From Rhizobium sp. Q54 (GTDB lineage: Bacteria; Pseudomonadota; Alphaproteobacteria; UBA7879; VGCX01), in the NCBI GenBank assembly GCA_945870825.1, contig CAMBTM010000011.1:1-43215 (forward strand): DNA of 43,215 bases, given 5' to 3'. Both the position numbers and the translations under genes were made by a program. The notes beneath the pieces were generated by a model. The model was not told where the DNA came from and did no database searches. It saw only the letters and a program-made list of their open reading frames with translations. Of this stretch, positions 4,227 through 11,454 are shown in pieces. The number at the start of each line of letters is the position of its first letter. Within the stretch, counting starts at the first letter, position 1.

Positions 4227-6335
4227 CTACTCTGCAGATCCAGATTCATTCAAATCCTTCATGGTGAGGCGAATCTTCCGGGTCTTTGGATCAACCCCAA
4301 CAACTTTGACACGAACTGTGTCCCCTTCGTTCACCACATCAGTCACTTTCTCCACACGCTCCGGGGACAATTCACTGATATGGACCAATCCAGAAGTGCT
4401 CAGAAAATCAACAAAGGCACCAAAGTCCATGATCTTTACAACTTTACCTGTATAGATCTTACCGACTTCCGCTTCAGCTGTGATATTTTGAATGCGCGCC
4501 AAAGCATCGTTCACACGACGAGACTCTGTGCCATAAATCCGCACCAACCCAGTATCGTCGATATCGATCTTGACATCATAGGTTTCACAAAGCTCACGAA
4601 TCACCTTGCCCCCTGTTCCGATGACTTCACGAATCTTGTCTTTATGGACATGGGTCGTTGCAATACGCGGCGCATAATCTTTGACTTCTGGACGGGAATG
4701 ATCGATGGCCTTCGCCATTTCACCCAAAATATGCAGACGACCTTCTTTGGCCTGGGCCAACGCCTGCTTCATAATGCTGGAATCGATGCTTGTGATCTTC
4801 AAGTCCATCTGAAGGGCTGTAATGCCATCTTTGGTGCCTGCTACTTTAAAGTCCATATCGCCTAAGTGATCTTCATCGCCTAAGATGTCGGAAAGCACTG
4901 CAAAATCATTGCCTTCTTTAATAAGCCCCATAGCGATACCCGCGATCGGACTTTCAAGCGGTACACCGGCATCCATCAAGGACAAGGATGTTCCACAAAC
5001 AGTCGCCATGGATGAGGATCCATTAGACTCTGTAATTTCAGAAACAACGCGAAGGGTATAAGGAAATGCATCAACGTTAGGGAGTTTACGCTTAATTGCA
5101 CGCCAAGCAAGCTTGCCATGACCAATCTCACGACGGCCTGGGGATCCAAGACGCCCCACTTCACCCACAGAAAATGGCGGGAAGTTGTACTGAAGCAAGA
5201 ACCGTTCACGGTTTTCGCCGTGAATGTCTTCCATGATTTGCTCATCATCCCCGGTCCCAAGGGTGGCTGCAACAATCGCCTGGGTTTCACCCCGGGTAAA
5301 CAATGCACTCCCATGAACACTGGGCAGGATCCCAACTTCACACACAATGGGGCGCACAGTCTTGGTGTCCCGACCATCGATCCGAAGACCTGTTTTCAGG
5401 ATGTCTTTACGAACAATATCACTTTCAGCCTTTTTGAAGGCCTGCTCAAACAATGTATCGGAATAAGACTCTTCACCAACCGTTGCGAGAACTTTTTCCT
5501 TCGCTTTGTCATGAACAACAGCAATTAAAGCCTGGCGATTGGATTTTTCTCTTTCTTGATAGGCTTTACGAAGATCCCCTTCAAAATTGTCTTGAATCAC
5601 TTTCTTGATGGCCAAGATGTTCTCGCCTGTATCTAGAAGGTCCCAAGGATCTTTTGCGGATTCTTCGGCAAAGTCAATAATAGCTTGAATCACACATTGC
5701 ATCTCAGCATGGCCAAAATTAACAGCCCCAAGCATGATTTCTTCACTCAACCCTGACGCTTCGGATTCAACCATCAAAACGCCGGCGGATGTACCCGCGA
5801 CGATAAGGTTAAGATCTGACTTTTCAAGGGTTTCATAGGAAGGATTCAATACATACTGTCCGTCGACATACCCAACACGCGCTCCAGCAATAGGGCCTAA
5901 GAAGGGAATCCCAGAAATCGTCAAGGCAGCAGAAGCCCCAACGAGCGCCAAGATATCAGGATCTTGGTGCGTGTCATGACTTAGAACCGTACAAACAACC
6001 TGGGTTTCATTCCGGAAAGACTCAGGAAATAGAGGGCGAATGGGACGATCGATCAACCGAGATGTTAACGTCTCTTTTTCACTGGGACGGCCTTCGCGCT
6101 TTAAAAATCCGCCAGGAATACGGCCAGCGGCATATAATTTTTCTTGATAATGAACACCCAGTGGGAAAAAATCCACTTTAGGGTCGGCCTGCTTTTTTGC
6201 AACAACTGTACACAAAACCCTTGCATTCCCTGATGAAACCAACACAGCACCGTCAGCCTGACGCGCAATCTTACCAGTTTCTAAAACAAGGGTGCTTTCT
6301 CCCCATTTAATTTCTTTTCTTACAATATTGAACAT
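4227..6335 (-). CDS. pnp: Polyribonucleotide nucleotidyltransferase (PNPase)
   Basis: PNPase degrades RNA 3' to 5' with phosphate and is a core degradosome enzyme. The 702-residue protein has the full domain order: two RNase PH domains separated by a helical linker, a KH domain (about 548-605, with GTGG in [15 protein letters not shown]) and an S1 domain (about 618-690, [16 protein letters not shown]). The PH-domain motif [23 protein letters not shown] is intact. The start is taken at the ATG giving MFNIVRKEI, the usual beginning, with AGG nine bases upstream. An in-frame GTG two codons earlier is less likely. It follows rpsO, as in many bacteria, with a hairpin between them that probably sets the rpsO:pnp ratio. 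Confidence 0.97.
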
Positions 6336-6360
6336 ACACACATACCTAACTTATACGTTT

Positions 6361-6389
6361 AAAGGAAAGGCGGCCCCTTTTGGACCGCC
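6361..6389 (-). terminator. rpsO-pnp intergenic hairpin (attenuator/terminator)
   Basis: On the minus strand GGCGGTCC-AAAA-GGGGCCGCC is followed by TTTCCTTT. It lies directly after the rpsO stop and before pnp. In Escherichia coli the same position holds a partial terminator and an RNase III site. Here only a terminator-like hairpin with an interrupted T run is visible, so partial read-through is expected. Confidence 0.7.
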
Positions 6390-7945: not shown

Positions 7946-8045
7946 GAGGGTAATCTAGGGACTTATGGGGATTATTTCAACCCCCTTGCGTTTTTAGTAC
8001 AAAAACGTCATTTTTAGACCATGGTAGCAATTAAGAGTGAATCAA

Positions 8046-9029
8046 ATGAATATTGTTGTGGTTGGGTGTGGAGATTGGGGTAAGAACATTGCAAAGACTT
8101 TAAAAGGTCTTGGCAGTCTTTATGCGATCTGTGATCAAAAAGGCTTCGAAAAGGCCGTGAAATGCGCAGAAGATTTGAACGTCCCCATGCAAGACTTTGA
8201 AGATGTTTTAAAAGACTCAACCGTTGATGGTGTTGTGATCTCAACCCAACCCCATTCTCACTATGATCTTGCCAAGAGGGCCCTTTTTGCAGGCAAACAT
8301 ATTTTTGTGGAAAAACCTCTGGTCCCGTCTAAAGCGGAGGCCATCGACCTTGAAGCTATCGCCTATGAAAATGGGCTGACCCTGATGGTCGGACATCTGC
8401 TGCGGTACCATGGTGCTTTTGAAGCATTACAAACATGGGTGGTAGAGAAAAAACTTGGCGATATTCTTCATATCAACACCAGCCGGAAAAACCTTGGAAA
8501 AATTTACCCGAACGACAGTGTCATTTGGGACTTTGCCCCCCATGATTTGTCCATGATTCTGGCCCTTACTCAAAAAAAGGTCAGCCGTGTTCTTGCAACG
8601 TCCGGCAATTATGCGATCCCCATCCAGGCGGATGAAGCGATGATCTCCCTTGAATTTGAAGGGGGGCACCAAAAATCCTTTATTACACTCTCTCGCCTTA
8701 GCCCCTTTAAAGAGCAAAAAATTACTGTCGTTGGGACGAATGGCATGGCGGTTTTTGACGATACATTGCCGTGGGAAAGAAAGCTTCGTTTTTTTCATAA
8801 TGAAATTACCCAAGAATCCATCACCTGCTTTAAGATCCTCCATGATGTGGAGGGAGAGGCTGCTGTCTTAACTCCCTCTGAACCCTTAAAAAATGAAATG
8901 ACCCATTTTATCGCATGCATGGAAAATAAGACACCACCGCGTACCCCAGCCAAAGACGCTATCGAGATTTTAGACGTCATCCAAGCAGCCCATCAGTCCG
9001 TTCAACGCGGAGAATGGGTGGGGGTTTAA
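8046..9029 (+). CDS. Gfo/Idh/MocA-family oxidoreductase
   Basis: This 327-residue protein has the N-terminal Rossmann fold (MNIVVVGCGDWGKNIAKTL, glycine motif at 8-13) and the EKPL motif of the family in HIFVEKPLVPSKAEA near residue 90. A C-terminal alpha/beta domain starts around 115 with VGHLLRYHGAF and includes WDFAPHDLSMIL, whose His is in the usual catalytic region. Such enzymes oxidise or reduce sugars, inositols or nucleotide sugars with NAD(P). The start is the ATG at 8046, preceded by AAGAG with good spacing. It is a single gene divergent from rbfA. Its stop lies next to the first 50-bp palindromic repeat. The substrate is not deducible, and a role in surface sugar synthesis is only a guess. 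Confidence 0.88.
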   Translation: MNIVVVGCGDWGKNIAKTLKGLGSLYAICDQKGFEKAVKCAEDLNVPMQDFEDVLKDSTVDGVVISTQPHSHYDLAKRALFAGKHIFVEKPLVPSKAEAIDLEAIAYENGLTLMVGHLLRYHGAFEALQTWVVEKKLGDILHINTSRKNLGKIYPNDSVIWDFAPHDLSMILALTQKKVSRVLATSGNYAIPIQADEAMISLEFEGGHQKSFITLSRLSPFKEQKITVVGTNGMAVFDDTLPWERKLRFFHNEITQESITCFKILHDVEGEAAVLTPSEPLKNEMTHFIACMENKTPPRTPAKDAIEILDVIQAAHQSVQRGEWVGV

Positions 9030-9032
9030 GAT

Positions 9033-9082
9033 TTATCCTCGTATTTTATGCCCTTGACAACACAAATTACGAGGATAAATTT
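9033..9082. repeat. 50-bp direct repeat, copy A (downstream of the ATPase gene)
   Basis: It is identical over 50 bases to 10225-10274 and in the same orientation. It begins TTATCCTCGTA and ends TACGAGGATAAATTT. The 11-bp arms (9033-9043 and 9068-9078) are perfect inverted repeats around a 24-base loop. Its inner edge supplies the last codons and TAA stop of the ATPase gene, and its outer edge lies three bases past the stop of the oxidoreductase gene. Confidence 0.95.
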
Positions 9083-10206
9083 TGGGAAAAATCCGTAAGA
9101 CTCTGGACAAAAATCTTGTCTGTTAAAGGGTAAGAACGTTGACCAGGCGTTATGACTGTGAACCGATCAAGTTTTAAATCCTCCAAAGCAGAATGCATCG
9201 ATTTTGTCGTTTTGGGATGTTCTGAATATTTAAATTCATAGCCCAAACGTTCCCCATTTTTTAAGACCAAAAGATCCAGCTCCGCCCCTTTTTCTGTTTT
9301 CCAAAAATAATACTCTGCAAGCTCATTTTCCGTACTATGAACAATTGTCTCTAGAGCATAGCCTTCCCATGACGCCCCACATTTTGGATGAAAATGGATA
9401 TCGTGGGAAGGGATTCCCAAGAGAGAATGAAAAATCCCACTATCGCAAATATAAAGCTTGGGGCTTTTGATTTGACGTTTTGATATATTCTCGAACCACG
9501 GTCTGAGTTGGCGAATCATAAAACACCCTTCTAAAATATCAATGTATCGTTTAATTGATCTTTGGGTCATGTCAAGAGAACGGCCAAGTTCAGAGGTATT
9601 CAGGATTTGTCCATGGTAATGTGCAAGCATGCTCCACAATCTTCGCATATGAATAGGACTAATATCGATGCCCATCTTTGCTAAATCTCGCTCCAAAAAT
9701 GTCCTAATATAATCAACCCGCCATCGTTCACTATGAAGATCAGAGGATGCCAAAAAAGATTTAGGAAAACCACCCCGTGTCCAATGGGTTTGCATATCAC
9801 CTACTTCCCATAGTTGAAATGGTGGTAATTCAATATAACCAATACGTCCCGCAAGAGTTTCAGAAGATTGTTGGATCAAATCTTGGGATGCGCTTCCTAA
9901 AATCAGAAATTTTTTATCAGCAGCGTTATCCACCAAGAATCGCAAGTAGGGAAAGAGATTGGGTTTTAATTGTATCTCATCAATGATAATAAGTCCTTTT
10001 AAATTGGGAAGAGTCAAAGAAGGAGAATCAAGCAAAGCCAAATCTTGGGGATTTTCCAGATCAAAAAAATGAACATCATCGAACGACTGAGCATATATCT
10101 TTGCAAGTGTCGTCTTACCGCACTGCCGAGGACCAAGAACAGCACAGACAGGGTGTACTTCAAATGTTTCTTGCAATGACTTTAAATAGTTTTTTCTTTC
10201 GATCAT
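9067..10206 (-). CDS. AAA ATPase with DUF4143/nuclease-like C-terminus
   Basis: The 379-residue protein is an AAA_14 + DUF4143 ATPase. The Walker A motif is GPRQCGKT (25-32) and Walker B is IIIDEIQ (73-79). The sensor-like LILGSAS and the ELPPFQLWEVG segment follow. The middle part, from about 150, is a winged-helix-like region (LSELGRSLDMTQRSIKRYID). The end has the DUF4143 feature of Glu-Leu-Asp (309-311) and GYEFK (322-326), resembling a PD-(D/E)XK nuclease core. Its ribosome site is AAAGGTGAAG. The gene sits exactly between two identical 50-bp repeats, and its last codons lie inside one of them, which suggests it arrived as a unit. The cellular role of the family is poorly known. Confidence 0.9.
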   Translation of the reverse strand: MIERKNYLKSLQETFEVHPVCAVLGPRQCGKTTLAKIYAQSFDDVHFFDLENPQDLALLDSPSLTLPNLKGLIIIDEIQLKPNLFPYLRFLVDNAADKKFLILGSASQDLIQQSSETLAGRIGYIELPPFQLWEVGDMQTHWTRGGFPKSFLASSDLHSERWRVDYIRTFLERDLAKMGIDISPIHMRRLWSMLAHYHGQILNTSELGRSLDMTQRSIKRYIDILEGCFMIRQLRPWFENISKRQIKSPKLYICDSGIFHSLLGIPSHDIHFHPKCGASWEGYALETIVHSTENELAEYYFWKTEKGAELDLLVLKNGERLGYEFKYSEHPKTTKSMHSALEDLKLDRFTVITPGQRSYPLTDKIFVQSLTDFSQNLSS

Positions 10207-10223
10207 TCTTCACCTTTTTTCAA

Positions 10224-10252
10224 ATTATCCTCGTATTTTATGCCCTTGACAA
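10224..10252 (-). promoter_or_regulatory. Promoter within the 50-bp repeat driving the ATPase gene
   Basis: On the minus strand TTGTCA (10247-10252) and GATAAT (10224-10229) are separated by 17 bases. The -10 box overlaps one arm of the repeat's palindrome, so a protein bound to the dyad could block transcription. The gene start follows about 18 bases later. Confidence 0.6.
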
Positions 10253-10274
10253 CACAAATTACGAGGATAAATTT
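10225..10274. repeat. 50-bp direct repeat, copy B (between fic and the ATPase gene)
   Basis: It is the same 50 bases as 9033-9082, with the same orientation and no mismatch. Its right end overlaps the TAA stop of the fic gene by two bases. The inverted 11-bp arms are at 10225-10235 and 10260-10270. The sequence between the two copies contains only the ATPase gene. Confidence 0.95.
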
Positions 10275-11406
10275 AAAAAATTTTAAGGGGATTCTCAATT
10301 TCTTCAAGGGTTATGAGCTGATAGCTTGTACTGCGACCCCCTTGAGGATTTTGAACCAAGATAGAATGATTGACCAAATTTTGGATATCCCGCAAGGCCG
10401 TATCGGTCGAACACTTGGCCAACTGGGCATATTTTGACGTGTTCATATGTCCCTTAAAATCCCCGAGCATCATGTGAATAATATGCCTCTGGCGATCGTT
10501 CAAACGATACTGATTCACATGGTACCATCGCTTTGTCCGATCGATAGCCTTTTCAACCATGAGATCTGCGTGATCAATCGCCCGCTCTAAACATGCCAAA
10601 AACCACATTAACCATCCAGTCACATCGAGGTTCCCTCGCTGATGATGTTCAAGCTGCCGGTAATATTCCTGCCTTTCCATTTCAATTTGGGAAGAAAGAC
10701 TATAAAAACGACGCAATGTCCCTTCTGCCTGTGCAAGAGCCATATCACCAATCGCCCGCGCTATACGACCATTGCCGTCTTCAAAAGGATGGATGGTGAC
10801 AAACCAAAAATGCATGAGACCTGCTTTCAAGAGCGGGTCTATCGATGAAGAGCCCTCAAATGCCTTGAGGAATAAGTCCATTTCATGATCTAACACAGCC
10901 GCAGTAGGGGCCTCAAAATGGATAGTCTCTTTACCAACTGGACCGGAAACTACTTGCATAGCTCCTGCAGAAGACGGTCTCCAAGCACCCACTGTGATTC
11001 TACGTATACTACTGCGACCATTGGGGAATAAGGCCGCATGCCATCCAAACAACCTTTCTGCAGTCAAAGGTTTTTGATAGTGTTGTGTTGCATCCATCAT
11101 CATGGAGACAATACCCTCAACATCCCGATTCGTTGGGGGAAGACCGCCTATATCCATCCCCAATTGCCGTGCGATAGATGACCGGACCTCTTCTGGGTGC
11201 AGGATTTCCCCTTCAATGGCAGAAGATTTAATAACATCATTCGTGAGAGTCTGAAGAGTTGCTTCTTGCTGCAAGGAAAGCCCAATAGCATCCATCCGAC
11301 CCAGCAGTTTCCCTTGCTTGTAACGCACATCCATGAGTTTTGGCCTGAGACTTTCAAGATCCCACTTAAATGACGGCCAGTTTTTTTGTTCATAAATCCA
11401 CATCAT
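10273..11406 (-). CDS. Fic-domain protein with DUF4172 N-terminus and C-terminal helix-turn-helix
   Basis: Fic enzymes usually transfer AMP to target proteins. The catalytic motif HPFEDGNGRIAR is intact (206-217), with the His and Gly-Asn-Gly-Arg needed for activity. An inhibitory-helix motif, SSAIEG (about 61-66), sits N-terminal to the core, which is the arrangement of self-inhibited class II Fic proteins. The N-terminus (WIYEQKNWPSFKWD) fits DUF4172. The last about 100 residues include a winged-helix segment (RHIIHMMLGDFKGHMNTSKYAQLAKCSTDTALRDIQNLV), so it may bind DNA at its own operator. The start is the ATG at 11406 (or 11403), behind a perfect AAGGAG, which shortens the longest frame by 16 codons. 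The target is unknown. Confidence 0.92.
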   Translation of the reverse strand: MMWIYEQKNWPSFKWDLESLRPKLMDVRYKQGKLLGRMDAIGLSLQQEATLQTLTNDVIKSSAIEGEILHPEEVRSSIARQLGMDIGGLPPTNRDVEGIVSMMMDATQHYQKPLTAERLFGWHAALFPNGRSSIRRITVGAWRPSSAGAMQVVSGPVGKETIHFEAPTAAVLDHEMDLFLKAFEGSSSIDPLLKAGLMHFWFVTIHPFEDGNGRIARAIGDMALAQAEGTLRRFYSLSSQIEMERQEYYRQLEHHQRGNLDVTGWLMWFLACLERAIDHADLMVEKAIDRTKRWYHVNQYRLNDRQRHIIHMMLGDFKGHMNTSKYAQLAKCSTDTALRDIQNLVNHSILVQNPQGGRSTSYQLITLEEIENPLKIF

Positions 11407-11425
11407 GAAACTCCTTAATACAAGA

Positions 11426-11454
11426 AGTATACGACAGGATGTGGGGAACAACAA
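11426..11454 (-). promoter_or_regulatory. Promoter of the fic gene
   Basis: On the minus strand TTGTTG (11449-11454) and TATACT (11426-11431) are separated by 17 bases. Transcription would start about ten bases before the AAGGAG ribosome site, giving a very short leader. The palindromic operator lies immediately upstream. Confidence 0.7.

Follow-up and report, generated by a model that had tools for sequence, protein, structure and literature searches.

Why should a single ATPase gene lie alone between two identical palindromic repeats, one on its promoter and the other at its stop codon? The question is raised by a locus in a 43,215-nucleotide stretch of Rhizobium sp. Q54 (contig CAMBTM010000011.1, positions 1 to 43,215; the window in what follows), where positions 9033-9082 and 10225-10274 are identical over 50 bp and in direct orientation. 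Each copy is an imperfect palindrome with perfect 11-bp arms (TTATCCTCGTA/TACGAGGATAA) around a loop of 24 nt, and in the left copy the arms extend to 13 bp. The sole open reading frame (ORF) between the repeats (9067-10206, minus strand) encodes an AAA_14/DUF4143 protein of 379 residues. The upstream copy bears TTGTCA-17-GATAAT on the gene strand (10252-10247 and 10229-10224), and the downstream copy provides the last codons (QNLSS) and the stop (9067-9069). The fic stop codon (10273-10275) begins at the edge of the upstream copy, and the flanking oxidoreductase (plus strand) and fic (minus strand) genes are convergent. A preliminary description of the locus had claimed these repeats framing the ATPase gene alone, the division of promoter and gene end between them, and the convergent neighbours; sequence comparison and ORF strands bear out all three. 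A search for the 50-mer in the whole 1.15-Mb genome gave exactly two matches, both framing the window ATPase.

We suggest, as a fairly probable answer, that the locus is an autoregulated one-gene mobile cassette bounded by its own palindrome, made up of a palindromic site of ~41-50 bp with the promoter and an ATPase-nuclease gene. The site is called P below, and alleles are written P-gene-P, P-gene or solo P; G000 is the genome of the window, G001 a sister genome of the same genus, and L-numbers are surveyed loci. The parts of the cassette in the window are:

10225-10274, minus strand: upstream 50-bp palindromic repeat, operator-like, overlapping the ATPase promoter (model R1 matches 10223-10272), in the position of the relatives' conserved palindrome
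10224-10252, minus strand: promoter-like TTGTCA-17-GATAAT, inside or overlapping the upstream palindrome, called from its sequence and from family-wide enrichment
9067-10206, minus strand: AAA_14/DUF4143 ATPase (COG1373-like; PADLOC PDC-S01), 379 aa, assigned by domain matches and a structure model
9033-9082, minus strand: downstream 50-bp repeat, 100% identical and in the same orientation, in which the ATPase gene ends (last codons and stop)

The family was surveyed in genomes that are mostly metagenome assemblies, with gene starts set by alignment and a weighting towards close relatives; some rows of the survey are the same contig (L122 and L039; L129, L130 and L132). Among 85,000 species genomes scanned, 80 close relatives at 47-57% identity turned up in many phyla. 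There are 11 family members in G000, 35 in G001 and 22-24 in two other genomes of the class, and most genomes have none.

Within the upstream 100 bp of 105 relatives, a palindrome score of at least 9 was reached in 69%, compared to 3% of shuffles, usually at -50 to -13 from the start codon. The consensus, TnCC(A/T)TGAAAAT(T/C)...(A/G)ATTTTCA(A/T)GGnA, spans 41 bp. A position weight matrix for P matches upstream of ~90 of 100 relatives, a figure which is circular in that the matrix was trained on upstream sites, whereas the palindrome scores are free of this circularity. P covers the promoter, and 31 of 100 genes, compared to 2.8% of shuffles, have a promoter-like pair with at least 10 of 12 matches. 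Pairing covariation in P lies above that of all shuffles, collapses on a slide of one base and includes few G-U pairs, as expected for a two-fold symmetric DNA site; a simple terminator or RNA hairpin was rejected on the same grounds, since P spans the promoter and its variation keeps Watson-Crick symmetry. At the same upstream place, palindromes of their own are found in several distant subfamily members (25-35% identity). The idea of a gene with its own linked site, put forward in the preliminary description, has thus gained strong support: a ~41-bp palindrome on the promoter in ~90% of relatives argues strongly that P is the self-linked site of the ATPase family, and it is probably an operator. 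Three Bacteroidota loci (L061, L070, L073) have another palindrome upstream of this one, at a distance of ~80-140 bp, and might have a double operator.

The second copy at the stop codon is found less often. A high-scoring downstream palindrome is present in 8 distinct genes of 100, with a clean gap to the rest (14.4 vs -0.1). Besides the window, these P-gene-P loci comprise L037-L040 in G001, L043 in G018, L008 in G025 and L086 in Acidobacteriaceae. At each of them the left and right P are near-identical to each other but differ from those at other loci, and in all 8 the extent of the repeat is that of the palindrome, starting at -30 to +20 of the stop codon. From this comparison, the arrangement in the window is a minority but recurrent state. 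A classical target-site duplication at the window was rejected, because the direct repeat equals the palindrome in 8 of 8 cases and because the gene is found with this type of P in other contexts too. Upstream of the nearest relative, L036 in the sister genome (79% identity, with different neighbours), lies a P whose arms are those of the window. At L166 (4749-5132, G011:C8) a degraded ATPase C-terminus is followed by an intact palindrome, as if the gene had decayed and the downstream site had stayed.

These data could also be read in terms of a non-mobile, autoregulated gene, perhaps one for defence, inherited vertically or transferred passively; P would be a mere operator, the second P the product of local tandem duplication, and solo P the leftovers of deletion between repeats. 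The universal promoter P and the rare downstream copy fit this, but separate duplications of exactly P at the stop codon would be needed at at least 8 loci in at least 5 genomes, and we consider it unlikely.

Comparison across taxa is harder to reconcile with a non-mobile gene. L075 (Deltaproteobacteria) and L099 (Verrucomicrobia) match at 84% over 1,188 bp with unrelated flanks, and in the cross-taxon pairs the common DNA begins just before P and goes no further than the stop codon, the exception being L101/L105, where ~190 bp more upstream are also common. Since the shared DNA ends at P and at the stop codon, P and one gene travel alone; a non-mobile gene leaves such single-gene units, common to phyla with unrelated flanks, unexplained. 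Comparison of the loci shows P and gene as the unit common to unrelated genomes, with loci in the states P-gene-P, P-gene, P alone and nothing. In one Gammaproteobacterium the cassette is enclosed by a ~138-bp repeat of unknown kind (with TTTGACGGTAAGTC; L101 1694-1830, L105 308-445 and 1761-1898), the left copy of which recurs in another genome and may belong to a larger unit.

All four states are seen at the ligA 3' end in Acidobacteriaceae. P-gene-P is found at L086, where the stop codon of ligA comes from the left P, and P-gene at L186 and L212. At L207 there is a solo P whose offset (+21) equals that of the P at L186 and whose sequence is nearly the same; a further solo P is present at L201, and a decayed one at L190. 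L191, L195, L202 and L206 hold only 12-14 bp and nothing else. In G001, C31 and C128 have 385 bp in common at 96.6% on one side and 122 bp, with an identical P, at 95.9% on the other; in the place of the 1.17-kb family member of C128, C31 has 44 bp, and P is kept in both. The two (L156 1-551, L167 71-1747) have a nucleotidyltransferase-like gene in common and differ in the last 44 bp of the neighbouring gene. A deletion beside P would explain the best of these presence/absence cases, L186/L207 and C31/C128, under the non-mobile explanation; deletion alone does not explain the cross-taxon unit or the target duplications described below.

Solo P also occurs elsewhere in ATPase-rich genomes (G000:C26, G001:C1, G018:C23, C53 and C96, two in G025), in low copy, mostly at or between gene 3' ends and often supplying the stop codon. 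For three of these, a matching P (36-37/41) belongs to an ATPase of the same or a sister genome. Of two ATPase-poor genomes, which hold one or two family members apiece, G008 has one P site and G049 none. These solo sites bring to mind a logic like that of repetitive extragenic palindromes (REP) or IS200, with P as a mobile palindrome able to move by itself and the ATPase as its mobiliser, in keeping with their position at gene 3' ends, their low copy number and their frequent supply of a stop codon. We regard this as highly improbable: no HUH Y1 transposase was found, and there are few solo copies, most of which match the P of one particular ATPase instead of making up a family. Two solo P in G018 (C96:696-744 and C53:10494-10542) match surveyed ATPase sites at only 27-29/41 and are possible targets or scars of unsampled members.

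The search for an empty site with a single repeat in relatives, proposed in the preliminary description, therefore succeeded in part, with the ligA solo P and C31, and gave none for the window locus itself in the genomes compared. Synteny between G000 and G001 was rejected as a test of the window, as the oxidoreductase is located elsewhere in G001. No clean single-gene empty site was seen in the Rhizobium and Phaeobacter plasmids, and the Thermus plasmids were rejected as a presence/absence test because boundaries coincide with insertion sequence (IS) elements and shared C-terminal fragments. Many of the Thermus thermophilus plasmids (L170-L184) keep only an ATPase C-terminal fragment with a common right edge 46 bp past the stop; these fragments, possibly remnants, often lie beside PIN/AbrB or DUF433 genes.

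Other copies are framed by longer repeats. Flanking direct repeats with an alignment score of at least 20 were found for 20 of 97 family genes, compared to 3 of 174 other ORFs in the same loci, so that the framing is not due to chance. Non-palindromic direct repeats correspond to gene 3' ends: those of priA (L047, ~160 bp) and acr3 (L055), of an engB-like gene at L029 (G000:C21), where the ATPase lies between ~104-bp copies at 4840-4943 and 6274-6377, and of a large Verrucomicrobial protein gene at L099 (77 bp). Orthologues of the last gene in three relatives are intact, end in ...VELVLEKN* and lack the ATPase, whereas L099 retains this end only on the far side of the insert. The unit common to L075 and L099 excludes the long repeats, which argues that they are target duplications. 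Duplications of 77-160 bp, for L099 with intact empty sites, are also left unexplained by a non-mobile gene.

Several observations weigh against a mobile cassette. P is on both sides in only 8% of relatives, and the 79%-identical L036 has no downstream P. In the preliminary description, relatives with the gene and without flanking repeats were to count against the idea; ~92% of them, including L036, do lack the downstream repeat. Solo P, L186/L207 and C31/C128 could result from gene deletion alone, and the Thermus and Rhizobium plasmids show no clean empty site. Family copies within one genome are divergent, none being near-identical, and there has therefore been no recent transposition burst. 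The non-palindromic target duplications imply a second insertion route or other machinery. P binding, autorepression, recombination at P and the nuclease role are steps that we infer, and the excised circle is one that we propose. The one-gene cassette of the preliminary description is thus upheld by the cross-phylum units, solo P, the ligA alleles and C31/C128, but two-sided framing, from which it started, is a minority state.

What could the protein contribute to such a cassette? Both Pfam domains exceed their gathering scores (AAA_14: 89 bits, cut-off 27, E=3e-25; DUF4143: 133 bits, cut-off 28.1, E=8e-39), and the Pfam scan of the ATPase found only these two, with no transposase domain. An AlphaFold 2 (AF2) model, with a predicted local distance difference test score (pLDDT) of 88, has AAA+, winged-helix-like and PD-(D/E)XK-like domains:

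9802-10158, minus strand: AAA+ ATPase domain, residues 17-135, P-loop GPRQCGKTT (domain match and model)
9448-9657, minus strand: winged-helix-like region, residues ~184-253, candidate DNA-binding part, judged by the H-H-H-strand-strand order in the model
9145-9381, minus strand: PD-(D/E)XK-nuclease-like domain, residues ~276-354, E309-x-D311 and E324-x-K326 (alignment and model)

E309, D311, E324 and K326 are invariant in 12 aligned sequences and map to model strands 309-316 and 319-325; the predicted fold thus has the acidic residue and the ExK motif on a β-sheet core that define PD-(D/E)XK proteins. The earlier remark that a C-terminal nuclease motif makes self-mobility conceivable agrees with the winged-helix-like and PD-(D/E)XK-like domains predicted here. 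The best whole-length structural match of the model is a Walker ATPase of P. abyssi (PDB 2qen, E=2.4e-8), of the archaeal PAB2304 type, at only 13% identity; a sequence search of the PDB gave no useful relative. To our knowledge, no site or mobility is known for PAB2304-type ATPases.

The ATPase also matches the PADLOC PDC-S01 models (E=2.5e-76), and thus belongs to the same single-gene family. In PMC12988326, PDC-S01 is a single-gene phage-defence candidate combining an ATPase with PD-(D/E)XK; it is a genome-context candidate named from its embedding in defence loci, and experimental validation is pending for most such candidates. This raises the alternative that P-gene is a passenger, moved by integrases, IS elements or host microhomology recombination, with an ATPase that does something else, such as phage defence. 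The PDC-S01 match, the SoFic gene next door and plasmid copies near tyrosine integrases and IS elements speak for it; no recombinase or IS gene lies inside or beside the unit in the window, at the ligA locus or in C31/C128, and P is tied to the PDC-S01 ATPase family. We consider a passenger quite unlikely.

In the mobile cassette as we picture it, the ATPase would bind P through its winged helix, act as repressor of its own promoter and take P as its boundary. P-gene-P, as in the window with its 100% identical copies, would be a fresh or excisable state. If the two P copies recombined, a P-gene circle would be set free and a single P would stay behind; a solo P could in turn take the circle up again. 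Insertion elsewhere, mostly at gene 3' ends, would duplicate 77-160 bp of target. The proposal covers recombination by either the ATPase-nuclease or the host.

Such an element would resemble several known systems in part. Like integron cassettes, it has one gene and one recombination-type site, and insertion leaves the gene between direct site repeats; here, however, the site is 5', on the promoter (~90%), the sites are dispersed, and there is no array and no separate integrase within or beside the cassette, the attC motif itself not having been searched for. Homing endonuclease genes share with it the single gene, nuclease domain, cognate site and patchy distribution across distant taxa; here P is intact beside the gene and in empty alleles rather than split, an AAA+ ATPase is present, and the window protein has no LAGLIDADG, HNH or GIY-YIG domain. 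IS200/IS605 and REP-RAYT systems likewise have direct-orientation palindromes at both gene ends and solo extragenic palindromes, but here the promoter lies on the palindrome, the palindrome differs between loci, and the HUH Y1 transposase is missing. It also differs from classical IS/DDE transposons, as its repeats are direct, no transposase domain was found, and the flanking duplication is P or 77-160 bp.

More tentatively, PDC-S01/COG1373 ATPases might be an undescribed class of one-gene mobile element, in which an ATPase-nuclease recognises one palindrome as promoter, operator and recombination boundary, and embedding in defence islands reflects its own mobility; this we put forward with some doubt. 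Whether or not they also serve in defence, family genes may be mobile elements. The family, whose defence function is a candidate one, is reported among the most abundant 'defence' families of bacteria and archaea and as the fourth most common 'defence system' of prokaryotes. If the proposal is true, defence-system counts based on PDC-S01 need rethinking, and the cassette, with no known recombinase, would count as a minimal mobile element. The self-linked P and the present, solo-P and absent loci give testable biology: a DNA to bind, regulation, and a possible selfish one-gene element. We found no earlier description of the promoter palindrome or of cassette behaviour for PDC-S01 in the limited open-access literature, and nothing relevant under the ATPase domain names.

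The immediate neighbours of the cassette in the window are:

8043-9029, plus strand: Gfo/Idh/MocA oxidoreductase, convergent neighbour downstream, stop 4 bp from the repeat
10273-11454, minus strand: Fic protein (DUF4172 and Fic; PADLOC SoFic), neighbour upstream, stop codon touching the repeat

With the PADLOC SoFic match of the Fic protein adjoining the PDC-S01 match, the window has two adjacent single-gene families of defence type. On the Rhizobium plasmid pR132503 (L173), too, the ATPase is followed by a gene of the Fic family.
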